From the NCBI GenBank assembly GCA_030674155.1, contig CM060317.1, positions 39,096,774 to 39,160,773 on the forward strand: a stretch of DNA of 64,000 bases, in the 5' to 3' direction. The position numbers and the translations under genes were made by a program. Below the pieces are notes generated by a model, which worked only from the letters and a program-made list of their open reading frames with translations, was not told where the DNA came from and made no database searches. This DNA is from Stramonita haemastoma (Eukaryota > Mollusca > Gastropoda > Neogastropoda > Muricidae). This document shows positions 6,755-18,700 of the stretch, one piece after another (the stretch's first letter is position 1; every line of letters begins with the position of its first letter).

Positions 6755-9700
6755 CTGTACACAAACACCACAACACTTCTAGTTTGTGCAAGACTATATC
6801 CTCACCTATCTGTATCACCTACCAGACCACTGGAAAACTTAATATAGTTTCACCATTTGGAAATACAAAATTTGTTCACTTCCATCAAACCACCAAACCA
6901 CGGAGTGGACTTCAAGGGTTACTCACTATATCATGACTAAACACCTGTTCATTATCAGTAACAGATCAAACTTCAGCCAAAAACTTTACACACATCAAGT
7001 ACTTTGCATGAGGAACGCTAATGAGGTAGCATATCATAACACTCTGAATTGAGAGATAACTGTGAGCAAATTTGCACAAATCGTTTAACCTCTAATGTTT
7101 CTGTATTTCACACAACATGTTAAGATAAAGTTCTGTGCACATCTCCCTAAAACAAGAGCATAAGTAATCCATCCAATAATAGAAGATTCAGACGACAGCT
7201 GTCCGGCCACAAATAAAACCTTTTATACTAGGGAATCTATCCAAGTCACAGAAGAAGATTCTCCCAGTTGTGAATTGAAATAGGAAAACATCCATTCAGA
7301 ATTACAATTATGAGCCAGTGGTTTTGTGAAATATTGGTGTGCCCAGTTACAAACACCAAGCAGATCTTGAATGATTTGAAAACTCAAACTTAACTCCTTA
7401 CTTCTATCATACCTAAAAAAAAAAAAAAAAAGTAAATAAATTCTGAATTGATGTATAGAATTTTGAGTGAACTACTAAAGCCACAGCTAGTTATTCTGTA
7501 CACATTTTACAATGTCACAATCCCAATGCCAGACACTGACCTTCTTGTACGCCATCTCAAACAGCTTGAGGGACTGTTGCTGCAGGTCGGTGGTCTCCTG
7601 GCGGATCTTGTCTGGAGACTCGTTGTCCTTGTTGGCCAGCAGCTGTCTCACCTCGTTCATCTTCTCCCGCAGTTTGTCACACTGACACAACCAAAATCAT
7701 TGCGTCAGAAACAGACATTGCTACTTCCTCATCCCTTTTATTTCTATTCAGAGCAGAACAGATTCATTCAGTATGTCTCAATAGTGTGTTTAAACTAGGG
7801 AACAAAAAAAAATGCCCTTGTTCCGGAGGAAAGTTTAATAGAGATTATCCATCCTTGTCAAAAATTTATTAATAGTTATCTCATTTTGAGGTTTATTTTT
7901 TTCACATTTACAAAGGAAAGGTTTTTTTAAAAAAAAGAAGAAATCTTAGGGTAACATCACAGAAGCATCAACATGGGCCAAAACTATGGTAATAATTATT
8001 TTTAAAAACCGGAGGTGACAATAATTTAAATATTAAAATGTGACAATCACAAAAGACAGACCAGGTACACTAGTCATGCTCAGTAATGATTATTTCCGCA
8101 GCAATCTCGGATGACGAAAAATTAAAGCATCATTGCATGACTAAAATGCTGGCATGCAGTCTTTGCATTCCTTTAAGTTTTTTTGGGTTTTTTAAAAAAG
8201 TGTACTTACAACAAATGATTCTAAACAAGACAATTAAAAAGTTATAAATGGTAAATAAGCAGCACTGTGGTTCAGCCTCTAAGGGGAATGAAAAAAAGTA
8301 CAACTTTTGTTATCACTGACTTGACTGATCACTAGTATATGAACTGATCTCATGTGATGCCACTCAACATGAAATACTAGCATGACTGAACTAAACACTG
8401 CAATGAAATTCTAGCATGACTGAACTAAACACTGCAATGAAATTCTAGCATGATTGAACTAAAACACTGCAACGTCCTCAGAAATCATAATGAAAAATAA
8501 CAAACCGTAACATCCCACTTTTCTCAGACACCATGATAAATGATAACATCCAGCCACTGTTGAAACCTTAACACTAAAAACAGTATGCCGAACTGATAAA
8601 AAAAATCAACTACTTCAGTCATGCTCAGACAAATCATATCCGCAGCAAATCTCGGATGACGAAAAATAAAACATCACTGCATGACTAAGGTGCTGACATT
8701 TTCTCTCTTCTCTCACTATACATAAAAAGAATAATTCTCTCTCTTCTCTCACTATACATAAAAAAGAAATGACCCTACTGTATTAGATTGTATCAGTCCA
8801 TTATGATGTCAATTCCAGTGCCTTTGGATTGTACTAGAATTACACACACAGCTAAACACATTACAGAGATAATCCATCCAAAAATTATAAACAGCCAACA
8901 TGAACAATAAAATTGTGAGAAACTACTCAAATACCTTTTTTTTTGGGGGGGGGGGGGGGGGGGGGCATGTCAAATGTTACACATTGATGTTAGGACTCTT
9001 ATCAAAGATCAACTGAGATGGGATAAAATCAGTTGATGTCTGATGAAACAAGCGAACTGTAACTAGACTGTATCCAAATAACATATCAAGCCCTTGAATT
9101 TCTGACTGACAAATTTCAAGCTTGTTATGTATAGAATGATGAAAAAACAACACTAAAACTCAAACAAATAAAAGAAATATTAATAAAAAAAATCCAGAAA
9201 TAAAAACAAAACCACACCACACACACAAGCAAAATCAAGCCATGCTCAGTAACAAACATTTCCGCAGCAAAATCTCGGATGACGAAAAACTAAACATCAC
9301 TGCATGACTTGATGAAAACCCAAGACACTCTCTACTCTCCCTAGGGGCCTGACCACAAAGCTGAACTCACAGCCAAAAACAACAAACATTCTTACAGAAC
9401 TCCATCACACCAGCACCTCCACCAACGATGAAGACTTGAGGTTTTCTACTATTCCAAAAACAAAAAAATATATCATGGCTGAAACTGAAAGCACAGACAG
9501 CTCACCTCCTCTTGTGGCAGTTGGTCCTTGAACTCCTCCATCTTGCTCTCTGTGTCGTGGATGATGCTGTCAGCCTGGTTCAGCACTTCCACCAGTTCCT
9601 GACAGACATCACACACACACACACACAATTATAGGCCTTGCTTAGTCCATCTTATTTGTCTGCATAAACATCACATGATAGCTCCTCATGGGGTGGGGCT

Positions 9701-15700: not shown

Positions 15701-18700
15701 GAAACACCCTTTCCAAATTTCAAACCAAACAAAATCTTCAACAATGTCACATGAAAACTCACTCTGTTGCTCCTTTCCTGTTCCCTTATCTCTGGCTGAC
15801 ACATTGACAATGCCATTGGCGTCAATGTCAAAGGTCACTTCCACCTGAGGCACACCTCGTGGGGCTGGGGGAATGCCAACCTGAAACAGAGAAAAACAGT
15901 ACAGTCAGGCCAGTTTCAAAGGAAAGCATGTGCACACAAATGCATGTGCAAATGCATGCACACTCACATATTTCTTTCAGCTACTTATGGTTTAATCCAT
16001 GAACCTCAATTGATTCTGTACAAGAACAGTTTCACTTGTAAATTTTTGTTACCCTAAAACACAGGCATTTTTTTAAAAATTTAAGATATTAAGTGCAATC
16101 ATCATATTACCTATAAACCCCAACAGGAAAAAAAATCTGATAAAACATGAAAAAATATAAACATGAAAACAATCCATATCAAATCTGTTTAAAAATCTAA
16201 CTTTTGATTTAAAGTTACAAAAGCTCTGAGAATCAAAACCTGTACAGAATGACCAAAAGAGGTTGAATACTTATTGCTTTACACAAATTAAGTACTGAAA
16301 ATCGTTCCCCATACACTCCTTTTTCTCCCACAAGGTCAAGACGCTTGAGAACCAACTCACCAGCGTAAACTGCCCCAACAGTTTGTTGTCGTTGGCCATC
16401 TCACGCTCTCCCTGGAACACCTTGATCTCCACCTGCGTCTGCCCGTCAGCTGCTGTGGAGAACACCTGTGACTTCTTGGTGGGGATGGTGGTGTTGCGGC
16501 CGATCAGCTTGGTGAAAACACCGCCCAGAGTCTCGATGCCCAGAGACAGCGGCGTCACGTCCAGCAACAGCACGTCTGTCACGTCACCAGCCAGCACACC
16601 TCCCTGCCAAACGTCACCACGGGTCAGAAGTTTTCAACTCTAAAGCTCAACATGACTTCACAGTTTTTGGAGACGGATCAGGTTTTCAATACTGATTGTC
16701 ACTGACTCTGTTTTTCCACTACAGCTCACTTTTATCAATCTTACTAACACACACACACATGATCAGTGATACCTACCTTACCAACCAAAACCTTTTCAAT
16801 CACAAGATTAACAAGAAAGACCATATCAGTGCTAAAACCCAAATCCCATTCACTAGACCTATCCGTATCTGAGCAGCAGCACAAATAACAATCTTACTAC
16901 ACATGACAAACTAACTCAATGATGTATGTATTCATAAAAACTACAGAGCTAAACAAAGAACCCAAATCTTTTATAAAAAAAAAGAAAAAAAAGAACATGA
17001 AACAAAGCATACACCAGCATCAACATACTCCTGTTCCTGGGCAAAAGTAGCCCCAGTATGCATGGCCCCTGCAAGGTTGACATACTTAGCTGAATGAAGC
17101 TTCTCTAATACATGCCTACATCAAAACCCCAAATCTCTTTAAATCTCACAGAACCAACATAAAACAAAGTATATATGAATCACCATCAACATCCAAACTA
17201 AACCCCCTAACCCTCGGATCAGACAGACCAGAGAAAAGGCTTCCTGTAGGTAGGTAGGTACCTGAACAGCGGCCCCAATAGCCACAGCCTCATCGGGGTT
17301 GACAGACTTGCTGGGGGAACGGCCAAACAGATCCTGCACTGTTGTCTGCACCTGTTAACAATCAACAGTGTTCTTCCTCATTCCAGCACACTCACAAACA
17401 ACTGGCTGAGCCAACTCTGCATCTGCATCATCATCAAAATAATCACCATCATCATCATCATCATCATCACCATAATCATCTTCTATTTCAAGCCTACAAT
17501 TCATTGTCAGATTTGATTTGAAAATGCACTGACATAAAGAAACTCTTAACATTAAAACAAATTGGTCATTTAAAAAACAACGAAAATGATTCAACACAAA
17601 TTATCTTATAACGACAAAATTTCTTACAGTAATAAAACAGGGAGGAGGGGGGAACAGAATGCAAGAGAGAGAGACAGAGGTAAATACTGAGAGACAGATT
17701 GAGAATGAGGCAAATAGACAAAGCAGTCAAAACATATACAGGCATGCACCACCTACTCCCCCTACCCCCAGGGATACAAATATACTGATGCACAAACAGC
17801 CCCATTACATATGCAAAACCTCTTAGTATTTCTCAGTAAAATGTAAATTCTTATACCCAAAACATTCTCTCTTTTATCTTATCTACCATTGTGGAAAACT
17901 CTCATATTTCATTCCGGTAACTAACATTTCTAAACTGAACATCATCAATGGTTAGTATTCATAAAAAACTTGTTTTGATGGTGTGTGTGTGTGTGTGTGT
18001 GTGTGTGTGTGTGTGTGCGTGTGATGCACATTTGCACAATCACTGTGATACAATACGATACCAAGTATACACAGAACAAAAAAAAACAAGCTGTGTCAAA
18101 GCCATATTGAGACACACAAACTAAGCGCATACAGAAAGTTGATAGGCCTACTAATCAATAATTTTTATATATTTTTAAAGTCCAAAACTAAAAAACATAC
18201 CGACAAAACTTGCAGTGTAAAAAGTCAGTTTACCTTTGGCATTCTGCTCATTCCTCCCACCAAGATGACCTCCCCGATGTCTGACTTGTTGACTTCAGCG
18301 TCCTGCAGAGCCTTCTGACAAGGTCCCACCGTCCGCTTCACCAGGGCTCAACCAAGGACTCGAACTTGGAGCGCGTCAACTTCAGGTTCATGTGTTTGGG
18401 GCCACTGGCATCCATGGTCAGGTATGGCAAGTTGATGTCCGTCTGTCAGTAACAATCGTCATGAATGAGACTTTCAATACAGCTGCCCTCATGTCAGATT
18501 CATAATATCTAAACACTCAGCTGTGCAGCCAGAAACAGCACTGCTCTGATCTCCAAGGTCAGGCAGCTGTAATCAAGAACAGGCAATGTCTCCACAGCCT
18601 GATCGGAAAAACCATGAGGGACGACAGGAGTCATCAAAATACCAATCTTAGATATGAAAAGAAACTGTAACATCAGAGCCAAATACTCAAAAACCAAATC

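Follow-up and report, generated by a model that had tools for sequence, protein, structure and literature searches.

Eleven putative box C/D guide snoRNAs in three consecutive introns of a gastropod mtHSP70 gene: one duplicated family, probably split by guide specificity

Small nucleolar RNAs (snoRNAs) of the box C/D class are already known from introns of Hsp70-family genes. In human, SNORD63 is hosted in HSPA9, which encodes the mitochondrial Hsp70 (mtHSP70), and SNORD56 in NOP56. Three copies of U14 have been described in hsc70 introns (PMC7277114). SNORD56 guides 18S C517, as stated in PMC5612246, which also gives the numbering of T514 and C517. Animal introns host predominantly one snoRNA each, and two in the same intron can give snoRNA-ended long noncoding RNAs (sno-lncRNAs; PMC11028025); the passages of PMC4053861 considered hold nothing to the point. 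The locus described here lies in 64,000 nucleotides of the gastropod Stramonita haemastoma (assembly GCA_030674155.1, contig CM060317.1, positions 39,096,774 to 39,160,773), a stretch referred to below as the window. Three consecutive introns of its mtHSP70 gene carry eleven units, each 74-80 nt long and on the strand of the host gene. Judged from the DNA, the units probably make up one duplicated family of intron-encoded box C/D snoRNAs guiding 2'-O-methylation, split by guide specificity.

The mtHSP70/HSPA9 gene is on the minus strand of the window. The three introns, whose edges were read from the sequence, span 15762-14694, 14598-9599 and 9505-7682, are all of the GT..AG type, and contain one (C1), seven (B1-B7) and three (A1-A3) units, respectively. 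This distribution is the one proposed in an earlier, sequence-only reading of the same DNA, and the span given there (7682-15762) coincides exactly with the outer edges of the introns. The seven-copy array within one mtHSP70 intron, also proposed there, is real: the seven B units are all found in an intron of 5 kb. Ten of the eleven units have both boxes, a C box (RUGAUGA, with one mismatch) towards the 5' end and a D box (CUGA) towards the 3' end. A terminal stem of 8-12 bp adjoins the boxes, again in ten units. The exceptions are B5, in which the C box is degenerate (GTGACAG), and C1, which has good boxes and a stem interrupted, as read by eye, in 2 bp, TT/TT and 4 bp. Of the eleven candidates proposed earlier, ten have both boxes intact, the C box of B5 being broken. 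Both strands of the window were scanned for units in which the C box has no more than one mismatch and lies one base from the stem, CTGA is flush with the latter, and the stem has at least 7 bp with at most one G-U pair. Nine matches were found on the minus strand, all among the eleven units, and none on the plus strand; 40 dinucleotide-shuffled versions of the 64 kb gave five matches in total. The two units missed are B5 and C1. The anatomy supports the units as candidate box C/D snoRNAs.

The single type C unit, C1 (15567-15642), is supported by covariance model, a sub-gathering Rfam match and guide test, and its predicted D' guide TATTTTTCGTCAT (about 15607-15619) fits 18S C517. In the next intron, B7 (14382-14461; boxes and stem, covariance model, guide test) has a D' guide to 28S, and B6 (13864-13943; boxes and stem, core comparison, covariance model, pair table) is identical to B1 over 80 nt. 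B5 (13311-13390; core comparison, covariance model, pair table) is a diverged type B unit which retains stem, guide and D box. Boxes and stem, covariance model and pair table identify B4 (12383-12462), B2 (11639-11718) and B3 (12018-12097), the last also by the guide test. In B1 (11307-11386), 19 of the 20 positions of the D' guide (11347-11366) are paired in the duplex with 28S GTGAGGGAAAGTTGAAAAGA, the energy of which is -22.8 kcal/mol. Among the type A units, A3 (9234-9313; boxes and stem, guide test, covariance model, pair table) has a 12-bp terminal stem. A2 (8615-8688; guide test, pair table, duplex shuffles) has a D' guide (about 8656-8669) matching 18S C517 at 14 of 14 positions, and a second complementarity (about 8635-8653) to 28S CATATCCGCAGCAGGTCTC. 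The D' guide of A1 (8070-8144; guide shuffles, covariance model, pair table) matches C517 at 13 of 14 positions.

Three types were distinguished in the sequence-only reading. A covariance model built from A1-A3 and B1-B7, with C1 left out, finds C1 at 15565-15638 with E=3.2e-7. Of the matches that follow, two (E=0.044 and 0.18) are to members of the family on the reverse strand, and the next unrelated place on the minus strand has E=0.15. Since C1 is found by a model made of A and B units, the types belong to one homologous family. Cores are conserved over flanks: A1-A3 are 80-84% identical in the core and 24-43% in the 100-nt flanks, and the six intact B units 92-100% in the core, 41-91% in the 5' and 21-66% in the 3' flanks of the same length. 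Between B5 and the other B units, identity is 76-78% for the core and 11-45% for the flanks. In the alignment of ten units, 76 of 76 stem cells are paired, and at one pair both bases differ between the types (T-A in B and A-T in A). The covariation score and the share of cells paired are equalled by 6 of 500 shuffles. These data bear on the possibility that the units are an unexpressed tandem or interspersed repeat, similar to C/D snoRNAs by chance. The introns are repetitive, repeats are found nearby, and no Rfam snoRNA is matched at the gathering score; but cores are conserved while flanks are not, the scan finds little in shuffled DNA (5 matches in 40 shuffles), and guides complementary to rRNA are correctly placed, so that a fortuitous repeat is hardly credible.

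Six B copies have 209 nt in common, 61-93% identical to a reference in an ungapped repeat search, and the B array is therefore partly recent. GGCCA/TGGC is common to the B flanks. External stems formed by the flanks were compared with those at 1397 random positions: B5 has the strongest of the eleven (fraction 0.0007), and the other ten units are unremarkable (0.056-0.80). As only B5 stands out, nothing is claimed beyond the GGCCA/TGGC of the B flanks. An interspersed repeat, represented by GGTTCACCAATGRTGAGATT-like fragments with at most three mismatches, is found in three spacers of the array, between B1 and B4, in one orientation (11564-11583, 11910-11929 and 12265-12284, minus strand), and in the other beside the array (14083-14102) and at 48801-48820 and 53622-53641 (plus strand). 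Short direct repeats at 8369-8470 and 8698-8764, with spacings of 34 and 36 nt, lie between type A units.

Guides were tested on the convention that the target lies opposite the fifth base (-5) upstream of the box. Fifteen distinct guides (eight D' and seven D) were compared with 1000 shuffles each. The rRNA letters were assumed human ones (18S of 1869 nt, 28S with gaps), one 28S base being set to the invertebrate form after the first test; 5.8S, U6, U2 and U4 were covered in the first test only. The D guides were discarded, as all seven are unremarkable, with 215-981 of the shuffles as good. Among the D' guides, the top score of B1, whose guide is the same in B2, B4 and B6, is reached by none of the shuffles, and those of B3, B7 and B5 by one, three and seven, respectively; for A2, C1, A3 and A1 the numbers are 12, 23, 39 and 60. 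All seven B copies are represented by four distinct guides, and these share one 28S top site, GUGA[G]GGAAAGUUG. 18S C517 is the top site for A1, A2 and C1, and this fit beats 95% of the shuffles only in A2 and C1 among types A and C. An antisense element placed by the -5 rule is hence found in D' guides only, and fits rRNA beyond shuffles clearly in type B and modestly in A2 and C1; A1 and A3 do not stand out on their own. C462, which we take to be the U14 target site in 18S, ranks in the top three for none of the fifteen guides. C462 had been considered as the 18S target of the units and was ruled out, as indexing gave C517; the 18S numbering used agrees with the T514 and C517 of PMC5612246.

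A wider search for the best duplex anywhere in the unit, run on six of the eleven units with human 28S letters, gave as good a duplex in 51 (B1), 170 (B5), 111 (C1), 72 (A3), 7 (A1) and none (A2) of 300 shuffles; the best duplex of A1 involves yet another 18S stretch. Type A units have, between D' and D, a stretch complementary to 28S CATATCCGCAGCAGGTCTC (A2 -34.4, A3 -25.8 and A1 -23.3; 0, 7 and 2 of 200 shuffles as good). A second complementarity is unremarkable in B1 and B5 (95 and 181 of 200 shuffles as good). The type A complementarity begins some 7 bases away from the D box, and consequently does not fit as a methylation guide; type A snoRNAs may also hold 28S CAUAUCCGCAGCAGGUCUC through this second, non-guiding contact.

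The two rRNA sites, GUGACGAAAAAU and GUGAGGGAAAGU, are alike, and so are the guides, which read TTTTTCGTCAT in types A and C, and TTTTTCCTCAT in type B. Compared with 18S GTGACGAAAAATAA, A and C units pair at 13-14 of 14 positions, -5 included in all four, whereas B units pair at 11 of 14, with a mismatch at -5 in all seven. The reverse is true for 28S GTGAGGGAAAGTTG, to which B guides pair at 14 of 14 positions in all seven copies, and A and C guides at 12-13, with a mismatch at -5 in all four. The guide region of type B is longer, and pairing continues beyond -14, up to the 19 of 20 positions in B1. B5, though diverged by 22-24%, keeps the guide block, with 16 contiguous positions paired with 28S. 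Duplex energies are -18.2 to -22.8 kcal/mol for B and the 28S site (four guides) and -8.0 to -8.3 for B and 18S (three guides); for A and C they are -13.8 to -15.7 with 18S (four guides), and -10.8 and -9.6 for A2 and C1 with the 28S site. Position -5 of the guide is thus predicted to decide the site. The same energies make it most improbable that type B, mismatched precisely opposite the base to be methylated, binds the C517 region of 18S and acts there as a competitor of A and C or as a non-methylating chaperone. Such a role would accord with the 11 of 14 positions that pair there, -5 being one of the three mismatches, but the 28S duplex is far stronger, and the B guide bases further upstream find partners in 28S but, for the most part, none in 18S.

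A less distant alternative, still unlikely, is that the units are true C/D snoRNAs and that type B is orphan or decayed, the G-to-C change at -5 having ruined a C517 guide, and neutral tandem duplication having spread an array with repeat-laden spacers. B1-B4, B6 and B7 are recent copies with flanks in common, the C box of B5 is broken, and the spacers from B1 to B4 hold the interspersed-repeat fragment met also at 14083, 48801 and 53622. Against decay, the guide block TTTTTCCTCATCAGA is identical in seven of seven copies, the diverged B5 included, while bases on both sides have changed, and the 28S fit is reached by only 0-7 of 1000 shuffles over four distinct guides.

Several observations weigh against a family of functional guides as proposed here. 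B1-B4, B6 and B7, being recent copies, are not independent. The covariation in the stem amounts to one event, and 390 of 500 shuffles have as many double-changed pairs. The D' box of C1 (CATA) and the C' box of type A are poor. No snoRNA reaches the Rfam gathering score in the window, where the sole match at gathering is a tRNA. The fit of A1 to C517 is equalled by 60 of its 1000 shuffles, and the top site of A3 is another 28S position (27.0), C517 being second (24.0) and below the 95% level of 26.0. The rRNA letters are assumed ones, of human, and one 28S base was changed, after the first test, from the human A (GTAAGGG) to G (GTGAGGG). If the human A is used, the B guide pairs only from -4 onwards and the score is 29.0. 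The same B guide was shuffled in four sets of 60, with maxima of 29.5 and 31.0 in two sets, exceeding this score, and of 24.5 and 26.0 in the other two, falling short of it. B5, again with human letters, fits the 28S site of SNORD12 slightly better (-15.6) than the GGGAAAG site (-13.6). The change was based on the D2A primer, which has the form GTGAGGG and has been used on nematodes and crabs, in none of the papers found on a gastropod, and on 15 prokaryotic contigs matched by a 29-base 28S pattern with GTGAGGG, which indicate that this form is widespread and nothing more. In a search for eukaryotic rRNA, 18S patterns gave no match in the contig collections, nor did 28S patterns in viral contigs.

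In the duplicated guide family which we favour, the introns would be spliced, debranched and trimmed down to protein-bound units, the latter associated presumably with the C/D proteins 15.5K, NOP56, NOP58 and fibrillarin, and only the D' guide would be used. The base methylated would be 18S C517, the SNORD56 site, for A1-A3 and C1, and, for B1-B7, the first G in 28S GUGA[G]GGAAAGUUG. The targeted 28S guanosine is not known to be a methylation site in human. The U-rich guide would tolerate by wobble the A/G differences between the two rRNA sites, and replacement of G by C at -5, the position facing the methylated base, would move the guide from one to the other; given site likeness and wobble tolerance, this single change could be enough. 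The C517 form is plausibly the older, as it is the vertebrate form, that of SNORD56. We tentatively suggest that a substitution at -5 turned an 18S C517 guide of the SNORD56 type into a guide for a 28S guanosine, subsequently amplified sevenfold in one intron. Retargeting of snoRNAs by guide mutation has reportedly been discussed for nematodes. No description of a mollusc array or of seven copies in the same intron, nor of paralogues retargeted in this way, emerged from a narrow literature search, mostly of titles and abstracts. If true, the locus would be a concrete case of target change in a guide snoRNA, in which two rRNA sites are alike, the guide tolerates wobble and a single base decides, both guide forms being preserved side by side in one gene; a specific 28S methylation is predicted. 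Seven snoRNAs per intron also raise the question of how internal copies are freed when debranched introns are trimmed from the ends. Since one snoRNA per intron is the predominant rule, seven in one intron would either need internal cleavage or leave long RNAs ended by snoRNAs; exonuclease trimming of the seven-copy intron from both ends should accordingly yield long snoRNA-capped RNAs as well.

Fourteen exon pieces of the host gene have been placed by tblastn with human HSPA9. The last of these is weak (E=0.71), and the single plus-strand row (E=8.1) is attributed to chance. The exon that precedes the first of the snoRNA introns (VGIPPAPRGVPQVEV...KEQQ; 15763-15880, minus strand) is 87% identical to residues 506-544 of human HSPA9. 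It is followed, on the same strand, by exons at 14599-14693 (VVIQSSGGLSKDEIENM...), 9506-9598 (ELVEVLNQADSIIHDTESKMEEFKDQLPQEE) and 7541-7681 (CDKLREKMNEVRQLLANKDNE...), and all four are defined by tblastn and splice sites. The N-terminal exon was not seen by tblastn in the window, and for this reason the numbers 12-14, earlier given to the introns, are not confirmed; with 14 pieces, the last weak, and one unseen first exon, the introns would be 11-13. Elsewhere in the window, a tRNA-Thr (CGT) gene is found at 3170-3244 on the minus strand by both ARAGORN and Rfam. In the list of open reading frames, several near-identical frames of the region 23168-43000 (e.g. 33872-34957, 35924-37090 and 39292-40458) resemble reverse transcriptases by eye, and gag/pol-like frames of retroelements were similarly noticed around 40564-42746.

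Below the gathering score, more than 20 C/D families of Rfam match the units weakly. SNORD63 (RF00154; gathering 43) is the best family for A1 (26.1 bits) and, at 24.1-30.0 bits (top E=0.028), for all the type B copies except B5, which is not listed for it. SNORD56 (RF00275; gathering 36) is best for C1 (20.8 bits), and scores 13.4 for A2, for which the best family is SNORD121A (26.0 bits, gathering 44). Scores for SNORD36 (RF00049; gathering 30) are 28.2 (A3), 23.6 (A1), 22.7 (A2) and 19.1 (C1). U14/SNORD14 gives 21.4 for A1 and 19.9 for A2 (gathering 64), and SNORD12/SNORD106 (RF00581; gathering 43) 18.8 for two type B copies and 18.1 for C1. A SNORD73 match at 7930-8001, minus strand (23.4 bits, gathering 42, E=2.6), in the intron that holds the type A units, does not coincide with any of the eleven, and is probably due to chance.

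Type B units and SNORD63 share the box and stem layout and the HSPA9 host, and SNORD63 and HSPA9 are mentioned together in the papers found. The units could in principle be orthologues of vertebrate SNORD63, kept in the HSPA9 host since the bilaterian ancestor, as the top rank of SNORD63 for six B copies and A1 would have it. However, all the scores are below gathering, and the D' guide of the SNORD63 consensus, UCAACACAUCAUU before CUGA, is not found in type B, so that the similarity resides mainly in boxes and stem; we regard orthology as very improbable. The parallel with Hsp70-family hosts (U14, SNORD63) drawn in the sequence-only reading is likewise not supported as orthology, as the SNORD63 guide is not in common, A and C fit the SNORD56 site, and B fits another 28S site.

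Among the other families, SNORD36 comes nearest to its gathering score, in A3, without reaching it. The D' guide of SNORD12/SNORD106, UUUUUUCCCCAUCAGA, resembles AUUUUUCCUCAUCAGA of type B, but, with human letters, B1 and B7 pair less well with the SNORD12 28S site (-10.7 in both) than with the GGGAAAG site (-17.3 and -15.5), the order being reversed in B5. SNORD56 is like types A and C in having the 18S C517 guide before D', and its guide segment aligns in C1; it differs in the host, mtHSP70 here, the copies at this locus are duplicated, and the score of the units is below gathering. U14/SNORD14 similarly occurs in copies in introns of the Hsp70 family, in the cytosolic gene there and in the mitochondrial one here. 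As in the intronic snoRNA clusters and sno-lncRNAs dealt with in PMC11028025, more than one snoRNA is found per intron, and at the locus described here seven copies are hosted in a single 5-kb intron.

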